A stretch of 64,000 nucleotides of DNA, taken from positions 124,001-188,000 of the forward strand of contig NZ_AQYH01000008.1 in NCBI RefSeq assembly GCF_000380505.1, written 5' to 3'. Below the pieces are notes generated by a model that worked only from the letters and a program-made list of their open reading frames with translations, made no database searches and was not told the origin of the DNA. Below are positions 2,965-63,578 of this stretch, piece after piece. Source of the stretch: Kaistia granuli DSM 23481 (lineage in GTDB: Bacteria; Pseudomonadota; Alphaproteobacteria; Rhizobiales; Kaistiaceae). The stretch's first letter is position 1. Every line of letters starts with the position of its first letter. The translations under genes were made by a program, and so were the position numbers.

Positions 2965-3882
2965 ATGTCGGGGAGCTATGAGGGTCGCCGGATAGACAGC
3001 CAGGACATCATCCTGGTCGGAGTCGATGGCGGCGGAACCCGGTGCCGGGCCCGCGCCCGCTTCGTCGACGGCACGCCGATTGGCGAGTGCATCACCGGCA
3101 CCGCCAACATCCTGGCCGGTATCGACGCGGCGCGGGACAACATCATCGCCGCGGTCGAGGGCGCTCTCGTCGCCGGCGGCCTTTCCGCCGCCGATCTCGG
3201 CCGCTGTCATGTCGGCATGGGCCTCGCCGCCGCGAACATTCCCGACCTCGCCGAGCGCTTCCTGGCCTCCGGCTTCCCCTTTGCCAGGACCGCGCTGGAG
3301 ATGGACGCCTGGATCGCCTGCCGCGGCGCCCACCCGGAAGGAAATGGCGCTATCGCCATCCTCGGTACCGGCACGGCCTATGTCGTGCAGACCGGCGGCG
3401 CCTTCGTCACGGTCGGCGGCTGGGGCTTCCAGCTCGGCGACCAGGGCAGTGGCGCCTGGCTCGGTCACCAGGCGCTGCGCCAGTCTGCTCTCGCCCATGA
3501 CGGCGTCATCCCCGCCACGTCGCTATCGGAATCGTTGCTGGCGCGGTTCGACCATAAGCCCGACCAGATCGTGACCTTCTGCAAGACCGCGCTGCCGCGC
3601 GATTACGGAGATTTCGCCCCGCTCGTCTTCGAACACGCGAAGGCAGGCGATGCGATGGCGGAAGCCATTCTCGCCCGGGCGACCCTCGATATCGAAGCCT
3701 CGCTGAACCGTCTCGTCGAGCTCGGCGCGGCCCGGATCAGCCTGCTCGGCGGCCTCGCCCCGCTCTATGCCACGCGGCTTTCGCCCGAGATCGCGGCCCG
3801 GATCGTAGCGCCGGCCGGCGATCCGCTCGAAGGCGCGCTGGTCCTCGCAGCGACCTTGCTGCCGGTCGAGGCCAATCCATGA
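2965..3882 (+). CDS. BadF/BadG/BcrA/BcrD-family ATPase, probable N-acetylglucosamine kinase
   Basis: The protein has the actin-fold phosphate motif VGVDGGGTRCRAR near its N-terminus and a second phosphate loop, AILGTGTAYVVQ, mid-protein. It also has the GGWGFQLGDQGSGAWLG segment typical of the GlcNAc-kinase branch of the BadF family. The expected reaction is ATP-dependent phosphorylation of GlcNAc or a related amino sugar at C6. I prefer the ATG at 2965, preceded by AAGGA; an in-frame GTG at 2953 is possible. It is first in a rightward operon, overlaps the GntR gene by ATGA, and shares the operon with a second, ROK-type sugar kinase. Confidence 0.8.
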   Translation: MSGSYEGRRIDSQDIILVGVDGGGTRCRARARFVDGTPIGECITGTANILAGIDAARDNIIAAVEGALVAGGLSAADLGRCHVGMGLAAANIPDLAERFLASGFPFARTALEMDAWIACRGAHPEGNGAIAILGTGTAYVVQTGGAFVTVGGWGFQLGDQGSGAWLGHQALRQSALAHDGVIPATSLSESLLARFDHKPDQIVTFCKTALPRDYGDFAPLVFEHAKAGDAMAEAILARATLDIEASLNRLVELGAARISLLGGLAPLYATRLSPEIAARIVAPAGDPLEGALVLAATLLPVEANP

Positions 3883-58113: not shown

Positions 58114-58189
58114 GGGCCTATAGCTCAATGGTTAGAGCCGACCGCTCATAACGGTCTGGTTCCAGGTTCGAGTCCTGGTGGGCCCACCA
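58114..58189 (+). tRNA. tRNA with CAU anticodon, probably tRNA-Ile2
   Basis: This 76-nt cloverleaf has acceptor GGGCCTA pairing with TGGGCCC, D-loop AGCTCAATGGTTAGAGC, anticodon stem GACCG/CGGTC with loop CTCATAA (anticodon CAT), T-arm CCAGG-TTCGAGT-CCTGG and encoded ACCA end. The overall pattern resembles tRNA-Ile2, whose C34 is modified to lysidine by TilS to read AUA, rather than elongator Met; software often labels it Met. Confidence 0.9.
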
Positions 58190-60751: not shown

Positions 60752-62263
60752 CTAGCCGAGCTGAAGCGCGAAGAACGCCTCGGGATCGTCGACCTCGACC
60801 AGGCGGTTGCGGACGATCTGCCAGAACCGCGTGCCGACCTGACGCACGAAGGCGCGATCATGGCTGACCAGCAGCGCCGTCGCATCATGGGCGAGCAGTT
60901 CGTGCTCCAGCGCCTCCTGGCCCTCGATGTCCAGATGGTTGGTCGGCTCATCGAGAATATAGAAGTTGGGATGCTCCAGCCGCAGCAGCAGCATCGACAG
61001 GCGGGCGCGCTGCCCGCCGGAAAGGGCGGCGATCTTGCCGTCCTGGATCGCGACCGACATGCCGGCATCGGCGAGAAGCGCCCGCGCGGCCCGGTCGTTG
61101 ACATCACGACGGCCAGCGACCGCGTCCATCGGCGAACGGAAGCGGTCGAGATGCTGCAACGCCTGATCCGAGATCCCCGGCACCACAGAAGGTGCGACGC
61201 GGATTCTGGGGTCCGGCTCCGCCAGGGCGCGGATCACCTGGCTGAGCAGCCGCGTCTTGCCGGTGCCGTTGGCACCCAGCACCACCACCCGGTCGCCCCG
61301 GTTGATCCACAGCGCGCCGGTCCGGAACAGGGTTCGGCCGTCCGGGGTCTGGATATCGGCGTTGTCCAGCGACACCAGCGCCTTGGAATGAATGCCGGAA
61401 TTGGTCAGGCGGATCGCGCCGGCGGAGCGCTCCTGGAAGGCGGGACGCGCCGCCTCCTCGATCTTCTCGGCCCGCTCGTTCAGGCGCTTGGTCTTGGTCA
61501 AAAGCAGGTCGGAGCCCGAATTGATGCCGATATTCTTGAGCTTGGCCGCCTGCCGCCGCAGCTGGCTGACCTTGGCGAGTTCATTGGCGAACTGCCGGCC
61601 CTCGGCCGCGTCCGCCTCGTCGAGCGCGGCGCGTGCTTCGGAATAGGATCGCGCGAACAGTTGCGACCGCTCGGAGCGCAGGAAGAGCGTCCGGTTGGTG
61701 GTCGCGTCGAGGAAGGCGCGATCATGGCTGGCGACGAGGAAAGGTGTGTTGCGGGCGACCGTGTCCAGCCAGCCCTGCAAGATGCCGATCCGGCCGAGAT
61801 CGAGATGGTTGGTCGGCTCGTCCATCAGCAGGAGATCCGGCTCGGCCACCCAGGCCCGCGCCAGCAGCGCCACCCTCTGCCAGCCGCCGGACAGTGCCCG
61901 CAGCGGCTTTTCCCAGAGCTCATCCGGCACGGCGAGATCGTTGAGGGCGATATCCACCCGCCAGGCCTCGGACCGGGCCTGTTCGTCGCTGAGCGCCGTG
62001 AGCACCGCCTGATGGAGCGGCAGCGCCTGCAACGCCTCGGGAACGTCCTGCGTCACCAGCCCGACGCGCAGGCCGCGGGCGCGGGTGATGTCGCCATGGC
62101 TCGCGTCGGCGTCGCCGGCGAGCACCCGCAGCAGCGTCGACTTTCCGCGACCATTGGCGGCCACAAGGCCGGTCCGGTCACCTTTGACGATGGCGAAGTT
62201 CAGATTGGAGAAAAGCGGCGCGCCAAGAGTTACGCCGAGATTGCGGAGGTTGATCAGGGTCAT
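60752..62263 (-). CDS. ABC-F family ATP-binding protein
   Basis: This 503 aa protein has two ABC domains and no membrane segment, as in ABC-F translation factors. Domain 1 has Walker A GRGKSTLL and signature LSGGWQRVALLARA. Domain 2 has GANGTGKTRLL, LSGGQRARLSMLLL, YILDEPTNHLD, and the linker between (residues about 210-300) is the P-site tRNA interaction motif region. Family members rescue stalled ribosomes or give antibiotic target protection. A leader ORF and hairpins upstream point to regulation by translation attenuation. No ribosome site is visible apart from the structured leader. Confidence 0.9.
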   Translation of the reverse strand: MTLINLRNLGVTLGAPLFSNLNFAIVKGDRTGLVAANGRGKSTLLRVLAGDADASHGDITRARGLRVGLVTQDVPEALQALPLHQAVLTALSDEQARSEAWRVDIALNDLAVPDELWEKPLRALSGGWQRVALLARAWVAEPDLLLMDEPTNHLDLGRIGILQGWLDTVARNTPFLVASHDRAFLDATTNRTLFLRSERSQLFARSYSEARAALDEADAAEGRQFANELAKVSQLRRQAAKLKNIGINSGSDLLLTKTKRLNERAEKIEEAARPAFQERSAGAIRLTNSGIHSKALVSLDNADIQTPDGRTLFRTGALWINRGDRVVVLGANGTGKTRLLSQVIRALAEPDPRIRVAPSVVPGISDQALQHLDRFRSPMDAVAGRRDVNDRAARALLADAGMSVAIQDGKIAALSGGQRARLSMLLLRLEHPNFYILDEPTNHLDIEGQEALEHELLAHDATALLVSHDRAFVRQVGTRFWQIVRNRLVEVDDPEAFFALQLG

Positions 62264-62265
62264 GG

Positions 62266-62325
62266 GTCACGTGTCGATCTGTAGGGCGCAGCCCAGGGGC
62301 TGCCATTCGGGCAGATCGTCGTGAC
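62266..62325 (-). promoter_or_regulatory. Stem that could sequester the ABC-F start region
   Basis: The arms GTCACG-tgt-CGATCTG (62266-62281) and CAGATCG-t-CGTGAC (62312-62325) enclose a second hairpin, GCAGCCC/GGGCTGC (62288-62303). The outer stem ends 3 bp before the ABC-F ATG, so it could hide the start from ribosomes. Confidence 0.6.
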
Positions 62326-62340
62326 AGGAATGTCCCTCGA

Positions 62341-62412
62341 TCAGCCCTGCAAACGGATTTGCAGGGCCTGGACAGGTCCACGGGTTCGATCGTGATATCG
62401 TTCGAGATGCAT
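62341..62412 (-). CDS. Putative 23-aa leader peptide of the ABC-F gene
   Basis: An ATG at 62412 with an excellent ribosome site (GGGGAGGG, 5 bp before) opens a 23-codon frame that ends in TGA 77 bp before the ABC-F start. The peptide begins MHLERYHDRTRG and ends QIRLQG, with R-T-R at residues 9-11, the +x+ kind of motif at which macrolides stall ribosomes. Its last codons form a perfect 10-bp hairpin (62344-62367). Leader peptides of this design control resistance genes. Experimental proof is lacking. Confidence 0.6.
   Translation of the reverse strand: MHLERYHDRTRGPVQALQIRLQG
62344..62367 (-). promoter_or_regulatory. Hairpin within the leader ORF
   Basis: GCCCTGCAAA (62344-62353) and TTTGCAGGGC (62358-62367) form a perfect 10-bp stem with a 4-base loop. 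It covers leader codons 16-23, so a ribosome stalled upstream or translating the leader would change its folding. Confidence 0.6.
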
Positions 62413-62558
62413 CCGACCCTCCCCTTGATGATGTGGACCGAGCAAAAACTATAGCCGTGGGCGGCGCGCGGTCAAGCGACCTCCGCCAAACGTTGAAGCG
62501 CCCTGCCCGTTAATGTCGGACAAGGCGCATCCTCGCCGGAATACCGGCCGAGGCCGGC

Positions 62559-63578
62559 TCAGGCCTGGGCGGGCGCGAGATCGGCGGCGAGCAGGCCTTC
62601 CGCAACCAGATCGGTCCAGAGGGCGGCCGGAATGACTACCTCCTGCGCCTCAAGGTTGCGGTCCAGATTGCGCTTGCTGCTGACGCCGAGCAGGACGGAC
62701 GCTACAGCCTTGTGGCTCAGCGGGAAGCGCTGCGCGGCGACCGCCAGCGCGACGCCGTGGCGGGCGCAGACCGCCTCCAGACGGCGGACGCGATCGACGA
62801 TCTCCCGCGGCGGTTCGGCATAGTTGTAGTGCGCGCCGGGAACCGGCCCGGTCGCCAGGATGCCGGAATTGAACACGCCGCCGACGACGATGCTGGCGCC
62901 GCGCTCGAGGCAGGCGGCGAGCAGCGGACGCGCGCCTTCCTGTTCCAGCAGGGTGAAGCGGCCGGCCAGCAGGAAGGCGTCGAGATCGGCATGGTCCAGC
63001 GCCTGCAGGCACACCTCGACCTCGTTGACGCCGAGGCCGATCGCCTTGACGTCGCCAGCGGCGCGCAGTTCCTGCATCGCCTTCAGGCCGCCCGACATGG
63101 CGACGGGGAAATACTCGGCGTTCTGCTCGACGCCATGCGTGTCGACGCCGATGTCGTGCATGTAGAGCACGTCGATGCGATCGAGGCCGAGGCGATGCAG
63201 GCTCGCTTCGTGCGAGCGCATCACGCCGTCATAGGAATAGTCGTATTCCTGCTCGAAGGGCAGCACGTCGACGAAACCGTAATCGCCCATGACGCGGCCG
63301 CGCAGCGGCGTCAGTATGCGACCGACCTTGGTTGAGATCACATAGCTGTCGCGCGGCTTGTCGCGCAGGAAATCGCCGAGCCGCCGCTCGCTGAGGCCGT
63401 GGCCATAGCGCGGCGCCGTATCGAAGAAGCGGATGCCCGCGTCCCAGGCCGCCTGCAGCGTCTCGTGCGCCGCCTCGTTGCTGACCGCGCGGTAGAGATT
63501 GCCGATGCTGGCGCCGCCGAAGCTGATCTCGGTGACGTCGAGGCCGGTGCGGCCGAGCGGGCGTTTGGCGATGCTCAT
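62559..63578 (-). CDS. Aldo/keto reductase (D-threo-aldose 1-dehydrogenase-like)
   Basis: This 339 aa AKR has VTEISFGGASIGNLYRAV near the N-terminus, and the catalytic tetrad in FFDTAPRYGHG (D, Y), STKVGR (K) and LYMHDIG (H). The set resembles L-fucose/D-threo-aldose dehydrogenases and pyridoxal 4-dehydrogenase, which oxidise sugar hemiacetals or aldehydes with NAD+. It is isolated on its strand. A ribosome site (AGAGG) precedes ATG 63578. Confidence 0.85.
   Translation of the reverse strand: MSIAKRPLGRTGLDVTEISFGGASIGNLYRAVSNEAAHETLQAAWDAGIRFFDTAPRYGHGLSERRLGDFLRDKPRDSYVISTKVGRILTPLRGRVMGDYGFVDVLPFEQEYDYSYDGVMRSHEASLHRLGLDRIDVLYMHDIGVDTHGVEQNAEYFPVAMSGGLKAMQELRAAGDVKAIGLGVNEVEVCLQALDHADLDAFLLAGRFTLLEQEGARPLLAACLERGASIVVGGVFNSGILATGPVPGAHYNYAEPPREIVDRVRRLEAVCARHGVALAVAAQRFPLSHKAVASVLLGVSSKRNLDRNLEAQEVVIPAALWTDLVAEGLLAADLAPAQA

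Follow-up and report, generated by a model that had tools for sequence, protein, structure and literature searches.

A conserved Gly-Pro leader peptide and competing RNA helices suggest translational attenuation of an accessory ABC-F gene in Alphaproteobacteria

What controls an ABC-F ATPase gene that, in the alphaproteobacterium Kaistia granuli DSM 23481, is preceded by a very short open reading frame (ORF) and nested hairpins? The locus lies in a 64,000-nt stretch of contig NZ_AQYH01000008.1 (assembly GCF_000380505.1), here called the window, whose positions are used throughout; all parts of the switch locus are on the minus strand, and from the promoter-like site to the ABC-F start it spans 62475-62261. 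A sequence-only reading had proposed that the short ORF is a leader peptide and the locus a translation attenuator. The comparative analysis described here upholds that proposal, with competing pairings that beat shuffled or swapped controls, if not in every measure. From sequence comparison and folding, the locus is probably a ribosome-mediated, erm-like translational attenuator of an accessory ABC-F gene, with a presumed ribosome stall and a presumed inducer.

To assess conservation, ABC-F orthologues were fetched by protein alone, with the leader ignored, from overlapping samples of relative, class, phylum, and order genomes. An orthologue was present in 15 of 101 relatives (E <= 1e-90), 22 of 385 class genomes (E <= 1e-70), and, at E <= 1e-110, 23 of 398 phylum genomes and 60 of 397 order genomes, the window's own genome being counted each time; all 23 matches from the phylum sample come from the class to which the window belongs. 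A covariance model of the leader end and hairpin, run on 67 orthologue loci, gave a match below 1e-4, upstream and on the gene's strand, in 58 of the 59 loci at >=48% protein identity (the exception is L175) and in none of the eight ABC-F loci at 34-43% identity. Of the 20 remaining order loci, 19 were checked, the gene of the other one (G867) being cut at the contig start: 17 matched below 1e-10, L238 had no match, and L244 matched weakly (E 0.0048) and, read by eye, has a Gly-Pro leader with hairpin, MIMAHRICLLWFGPRFALHVSS. Overall, the leader precedes the gene in 76 of 78 orthologue loci (75 strong matches, one weak, and two loci without it). The sequence-only reading had named a lack of conservation of the leader or its codons in relatives as one outcome that would refute it; the leader passed that test, with codon-level selection on the peptide as described below. 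The alignment from which the covariance model was built includes 14 of the first 15 loci, but the leader in all 15 was initially found without the model: a motif search gave 13, and L021 and L023 came from inspection of the sequence combined with a less strict motif; leaders in the protein-found loci from the class, phylum, and order searches were located with the model.

Starting from the leader instead of the protein, a pattern for the leader end was scanned over named genomes and returned at least 119 stretches (L024-L142), a set biased toward the pattern itself, as the protein-found leaders are not. Three matches (L056, L079, and L080) were dismissed as chance, leaving at least 116 real leaders, 114 of which precede the same ABC-F gene by tblastn; the L045 stretch ends 86 bases past the leader, so that the downstream gene is not covered. 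Only one leader among the 116 listed, L117 (Acidocella aminolytica, NZ_FQVJ01000060.1; L117:3160-4700), stands before another gene: in this case, leader and hairpin are followed by a gene for a MATE efflux protein (NorM-like, PF01554), which the assembly shows in two reading frames. Searches for close homologues of this MATE gene, with one piece of it as the query, gave no match at 1e-40 among 72,556 plasmid records and no match at 1e-50 among 289 genomes (the latter search without a positive control), so the leader-MATE association remains a single case. Leaders before unrelated genes were considered and rejected on a covariance scan of the 385 class genomes, in which filters were strict and only a few candidates from each genome were scored: the 12 matches below 1e-4 all lie before this ABC-F gene by position, and of 18 weaker scan rows only L158 does so, the rest looking like chance; the one match in viral contigs lacks a Gly-Pro leader and is likewise taken as chance. 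By record title, leader hosts include Rhizobium, Mesorhizobium, Bradyrhizobium, Bosea, Devosia, and Ensifer, as well as Roseobacter, Yoonia, Sulfitobacter, Roseomonas, and Nisaea, and the leader and ABC-F gene occur together on plasmids typed as conjugative, namely Sinorhizobium meliloti pSymA (L225) and a Ketogulonicigenium vulgare IncP plasmid (L226).

Folding and pairing statistics were computed on 129 leaders (53 protein-found and 76 pattern-found), and earlier start-codon and per-sequence shuffle runs on 91. Rows left out of the counts are L056, L079, L080, L045, two duplicates, and L178, L193, and L217, whose gene start the script did not resolve; L104-L142 were checked for leader and downstream gene only, and L228-L246 for the leader only. 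Codon tables use 52 protein-found leaders, with L181 left out.

The codon tables indicate that the leader Gly-Pro is selected as peptide. Gly is present in 52 of 52 leaders, Pro in 51, and the Gly-Pro pair in 51, and the first two bases of both codons carry 0 to 0.14 bits of variation while their third bases are unconstrained (1.55 and 1.76 bits). At the start of the hairpin, the Ala codon is GCC in 52 of 52, an invariance that fits a demand of RNA pairing. Around the core, R or H precedes Gly-Pro in 42/52 leaders (Tyr, Cys, or Phe may stand there, in 10/52), Val or Ile follows it in 43/52, and Leu occupies position -3 in 12/52. The window's leader does carry R-T-R at residues 9-11, which had been likened to the +x+ macrolide arrest motif; as the conserved core of the family that motif was rejected, with RxR in just 32/52 leaders against Gly-Pro in 51/52. 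Ten of 129 leaders have their stop codon within the hairpin, which is nevertheless kept (L181 is ambiguous). Among these, early-ending leaders of the form GPxxAL-stop occur in L047, L077, L087, L088, L096, L174, and L212, and in L047 and L087 the hairpin has a one-base insertion that a longer reading frame could not tolerate. Retention of the hairpin despite an internal stop suggests that the peptide matters to about GPxxAL and that the remainder matters as RNA. By record title, the named early-stop leaders come from Rhodobacterales-type genera. A separate group of deep variants (L178, L179, L180, and L193) has another hairpin sequence, GCCCCACGA/TCGTGGGGC in L178, L179, and L193, with the stop codon downstream of the hairpin.

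In erm-type attenuators, a short leader is followed by an RNA with four segments that pair either as 1:2 and 3:4 or as 2:3, and the ribosome site of the controlled gene is hidden at rest. The same competition can be drawn here, with helices 1:2 and 3:4 opposed to 2:3, in which segment 2 and the stop codon can pair with segment 3. Relatives most often have GGGC-U-GACC, GGTCTGCCC, and AGACCAGAGA in place of the window's forms of these pairing stretches, so the three segments tend to covary, and compensatory changes on both sides occur at 4 of the 10 hairpin pairs (53 sequences, 39 of them pattern-found). When each leader's own pairs were compared with pairs swapped between leaders, the result for 2:3 was equalled by 1 of 2000 permutations and that for 3:4 by none of 2000 (129 leaders). 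Over the same 129 leaders, the mean pair probability is 0.97 for 1:2 and 0.51 for segment 3 with the ABC-F ribosome site (0.05 when shuffled); before segment 4 is made, 2:3 averages 0.82 with segment 1 masked, compared with 0.24 when segment 1 is free and 0.36 in shuffled sequences. Masking segment 1 opens the ABC-F ribosome site by +0.073 on average versus -0.028 in shuffled sequences, with opening up in 55 and down in 6 of 129 leaders and up in 32 and down in 76 of 258 shuffled ones. Thus, as read from sequence, the locus combines a conserved leader ORF in cis, which has its own ribosome site, with mutually exclusive helices, and in the folding model a resting helix would hide the gene's ribosome site, the start codon itself being not clearly hidden.

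In the window, the leader does end in a 10-bp hairpin built from its own codons, as the sequence-only reading had it; this hairpin, GCCCTGCAAA/TTTGCAGGGC (62367-62358 / 62353-62344), takes up codons 16-23 and runs as far as the stop codon. The second structure, which pairs 62325-62320 and 62318-62312 with 62271-62266 and 62281-62275, was also foreseen, except that its stem stops 2 nt rather than 3 before the ABC-F ATG (62263); the minimum free energy model extends the outer pairs beyond the ATG. The minus strand of 62240-62430 folds at -78.4 kcal/mol (z = -3.61), with 0 of 200 dinucleotide shuffles equally stable; for the plus strand of 62261-62430, z = -2.04 and 10 of 200 shuffles are equally stable. 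Intrinsic termination was considered as a mechanism and set aside as unsupported, with no terminator found in the window locus and no enrichment in the leaders (7 of 129, versus 14 of 129 when shuffled), a result that favors translational control. An Rfam search over 62150-62600 returned no family at E up to 1, and no second copy of the leader DNA was found in the window's own genome.

The proposed mechanism is as follows. Without stress, the ribosome would reach the stop codon or 1:2 would reform, segment 3 would pair with segment 4, and the ABC-F gene would be off. A stall would leave Pro as the P-site residue and a nascent chain of about 11-14 residues within the exit tunnel; the leading edge of the ribosome would then cover segment 1 and leave segment 2 free, allowing 2:3 to form before segment 4 is made, so that the ABC-F ribosome site would open and the protein would be made. 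The edge of a ribosome footprint lies 15-16 nt downstream of the first P-site base; with Pro13 in the P site that base is at 62376, which would put the edge at 62361-62360, within segment 1 and short of segment 2. Gly is the 10th to 13th residue of 123 of the 129 leaders (start codons chosen by the analyst), so that the chain of a halted ribosome would still be inside it, and an outside pulling force as for SecM is unlikely. The likeliest trigger would be a drug at the peptidyl transferase center or in the upper tunnel, with the ABC-F protein then clearing such ribosomes; the leader probably senses ribosome-targeting drugs, and a tunnel or peptidyl transferase drug, or the ABC-F protein itself, is a plausible stall partner. 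XP(X) is listed among erythromycin-dependent arrest motifs (PMC6238534), with the bracketed residue taken here to be in the A site.

Several observations weigh against this interpretation. ABC-F orthologues L175 (65% identity; the upstream region lies above position 3009) and L238 (53%) have no leader in the 330 nt upstream, which possibly reflects natural losses, and two deep relatives lack Gly-Pro, with Gly-Ser in its place in L179 and Gln-Pro in L181. The permutation test of own versus swapped pairs ignores the relatedness of the leaders. At equilibrium with segment 1 masked, 2:3 exceeds 0.3 in just 56 of 129 leaders (42 of 258 shuffled), and for the window's own leader it is 0.00, rising to 0.79 in a co-transcriptional model, so the switch there would have to be kinetic. 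In the simpler run on 91 leaders, start-codon accessibility was unchanged on average (0.469 to 0.468; 25 up, 26 down). In a separate shuffle test made leader by leader on 91 leaders, 3:4 outdid 95% of the shuffles of the same sequence in just 33% of cases, and 2:3 in 76%.

The same data bear on other explanations of the locus. That the ORF is accidental or decayed and sits in a stable GC-rich fold is hardly credible: the region is GC-rich and the opposite strand also folds fairly well, and this account is contradicted by the conservation across orthologue loci, the wobble-only variation at Gly-Pro, and the compensatory pairs. The leader might instead act in trans, as a peptide or small RNA like peTrpL/rnTrpL of S. 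meliloti (the precedent cited in PMC7298713), with the hairpins only ending or protecting that RNA; adjacency to the ABC-F gene in 114 of 116 listed pattern-found cases, with 3:4 pairing shared in cis, makes this very improbable. The spacer between hairpin and gene is long (median 144 nt, range 60-229), as would suit Rho-dependent transcription attenuation, in which a Rho site in the spacer would become exposed when the leader is translated and be covered by a stalled ribosome, and control of an S. meliloti DUF1127 gene depends on an upstream ORF and presumably on Rho (PMC12218461). Such a mechanism leaves unexplained why segment 3 keeps its pairing to the ABC-F ribosome site despite varying spacer length, and on its own it is rather unlikely, but Rho attenuation and translational attenuation could act together.

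Drug-free feedback is a somewhat stronger competitor, if still an unlikely one. In this scheme, translation of the leader halts unaided at (R/H/Y)-Gly-Pro, as in RAPP-type arrest peptides, and the ABC-F protein clears the stall, so that low ABC-F activity raises ABC-F synthesis. The leader motif resembles (R/Q/H)-(A/G/D)-(P/G/S)-(P/G), the motif of RQH-family arrest peptides, which stall with the third residue in the P site (PMC10987492), and MsrD feeds back on the induction of its own leader (PMC10314930). Yet the fourth residue is mostly Val or Ile, not Pro or Gly, a fifth or so of leaders (10/52) have Tyr, Cys, or Phe before Gly-Pro, and the accessory, plasmid-borne distribution suits resistance more than housekeeping feedback. 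A broader version of the attenuator can be offered only tentatively: the leader would be an Alphaproteobacteria-wide sensor of ribosomes blocked at a slow Gly-Pro-Val step rather than of one drug, its ABC-F protein would clear that block in a homeostatic loop set off by any peptidyl transferase or tunnel trouble, and the module could move to other export genes, as in the MATE case.

The ABC-F protein has two ABC domains (PF00005 in two stretches), with LSGG and DEPTNHLD each occurring twice. Its best NCBIfam model is NF000355 (ribosomal protection-like ABC-F), at 292 bits against a cut-off of 380, and none of the named resistance groups is reached, the Vga, Sal, Msr, and Lsa models scoring 165-186 bits against cut-offs of 680-750. 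The genome also encodes EttA (937 bits), an Uup-like protein, one protein closest to PRK10636, which we take to be YheS, and one more ABC-F; the ABC-F behind the leader is thus an extra one. The gene is present in 9 of 14 sampled genomes of the genus (its own counted), and 12 plasmid records carry it. That an ABC-F varies in presence among members of a genus has been taken as a sign of a resistance ABC-F (PMC6723617), and the patchy presence in the genus together with plasmid carriage fits a resistance role.

The layout of the locus is given in Table 1. The 23-codon leader ORF before the ABC-F gene translates as had been predicted; its ribosome site, earlier called perfect, is strong but differs from the textbook AGGAGG, and GGAGG precedes 104 of 129 leaders (with start codons chosen by the analyst). 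The promoter-like pair TTGACC-16-TATAGT at 62475-62448 scores 10/12 (shuffle mean 0.0). Across 126 leaders, 31 of 54 upstream -10-like hexamers sit 38-45 nt before the leader start, a count without a shuffle control, and a best promoter score >=8 was reached in 34 of 127 regions, modestly more than the 15 of 127 obtained after mononucleotide shuffling.

Table 1. Features of the leader and ABC-F locus in window coordinates
Feature	Position	Strand	Basis or remark
-35-like hexamer TTGACC	62470..62475	-	16 nt from the -10
-10-like hexamer TATAGT	62448..62453	-	promoter scan
Ribosome site of leader, AAGGGGAGGG	62417..62426	-	4 nt before leader ATG
Leader peptide ORF, 23 codons + TGA	62341..62412	-	translation MHLERYHDRTRGPVQALQIRLQG, then stop
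Gly12-Pro13 codons, conserved peptide core, putative stall site	62374..62379	-	codon conservation
Segment 1, 5' arm of leader hairpin, codons 16-19	62358..62367	-	folding, alignment
Segment 2, hairpin 3' arm + stop codon + 2 nt; partner of segment 1 or 3	62339..62353	-	pairing tests
Segment 3, CGATCTGCCC; partner of segment 2 (GGGC-U-GATC) or segment 4 (CAGATCG)	62309..62318	-	pairing tests
Segment 4, CAGATCG + CGTGAC, adjoins ABC-F start codon; pairs with segment 3 + flank 62325-62320	62266..62281	-	folding
ABC-F ATPase gene, 503 amino acids, regulated gene	60752..62263	-	ORF, domain matches

Elsewhere in the window, the sole tRNA found is a tRNA-Met gene at 58114-58189. Directly downstream of the ABC-F gene, an ORF of 411 amino acids at 60733-59498 on the minus strand has a weak C-terminal match to the model of the VisN regulator (22 bits, far under the cut-off).

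If the proposed mechanism is correct, these loci would represent a widespread, testable ribosome-stall sensor in a large bacterial class that includes plant symbionts and soil and marine bacteria, an uncharacterized ABC-F group would be marked as probably drug- or stall-responsive, and the known arrest sequences would gain a new, compact one built around Gly-Pro. The leader start codon and Gly-Pro would then serve as genetic handles, as would paired changes to helices 2:3 and 3:4. Upstream ORFs that regulate ABC-F resistance genes are already known (PMC10219788, PMC10201436). In open-licence PMC papers, with most subscription papers and all bioRxiv preprints outside the scope, no description was found of this leader family or of a leader-controlled ABC-F gene in Alphaproteobacteria.

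The locus can be set beside three known systems. With the erm attenuators, including those with the ErmCL, ErmBL, and ErmDL leaders mentioned in PMC10314930, it would share a short leader, four-segment pairing, a stall before segment 1, and a hidden downstream ribosome site. In contrast to them, its leader sequence is unrelated, the gene encodes an ABC-F ATPase rather than a 23S methylase, in 116 of 129 leaders segments 1 and 2 consist of coding sequence that runs to the stop, segments 3 and 4 can be up to roughly 190 nt apart, and the hosts found here are Alphaproteobacteria. Like the msrD, vmlR, vgaA, and lmo0919 attenuators (PMC10314930), it has an upstream ORF before an ABC-F gene and ribosome stalling as the presumed signal. 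According to that source, resistance ABC-F genes tend to be controlled at transcription, msrD with a Rho-independent terminator, and vmlR, by the title of a paper, is controlled at translation too; unlike in the msrD-type attenuators, terminators are not enriched here and the ABC-F ribosome site is paired. Finally, the Arg/His-Gly-Pro core and the Pro expected in the P site recall the RAPP/RGPP (RQH-family) arrest peptides, including SecM, ApcA, ApdA, and ApdP (PMC10987492, PMC12992588). The leader departs from that family in that Val or Ile mostly replaces the Pro or Gly after the core, so that the full motif is not matched, in that the chain at the core, about 11-14 residues, is too short to exit the ribosome, and in that the downstream gene is not sec or yidC but an ABC-F gene.
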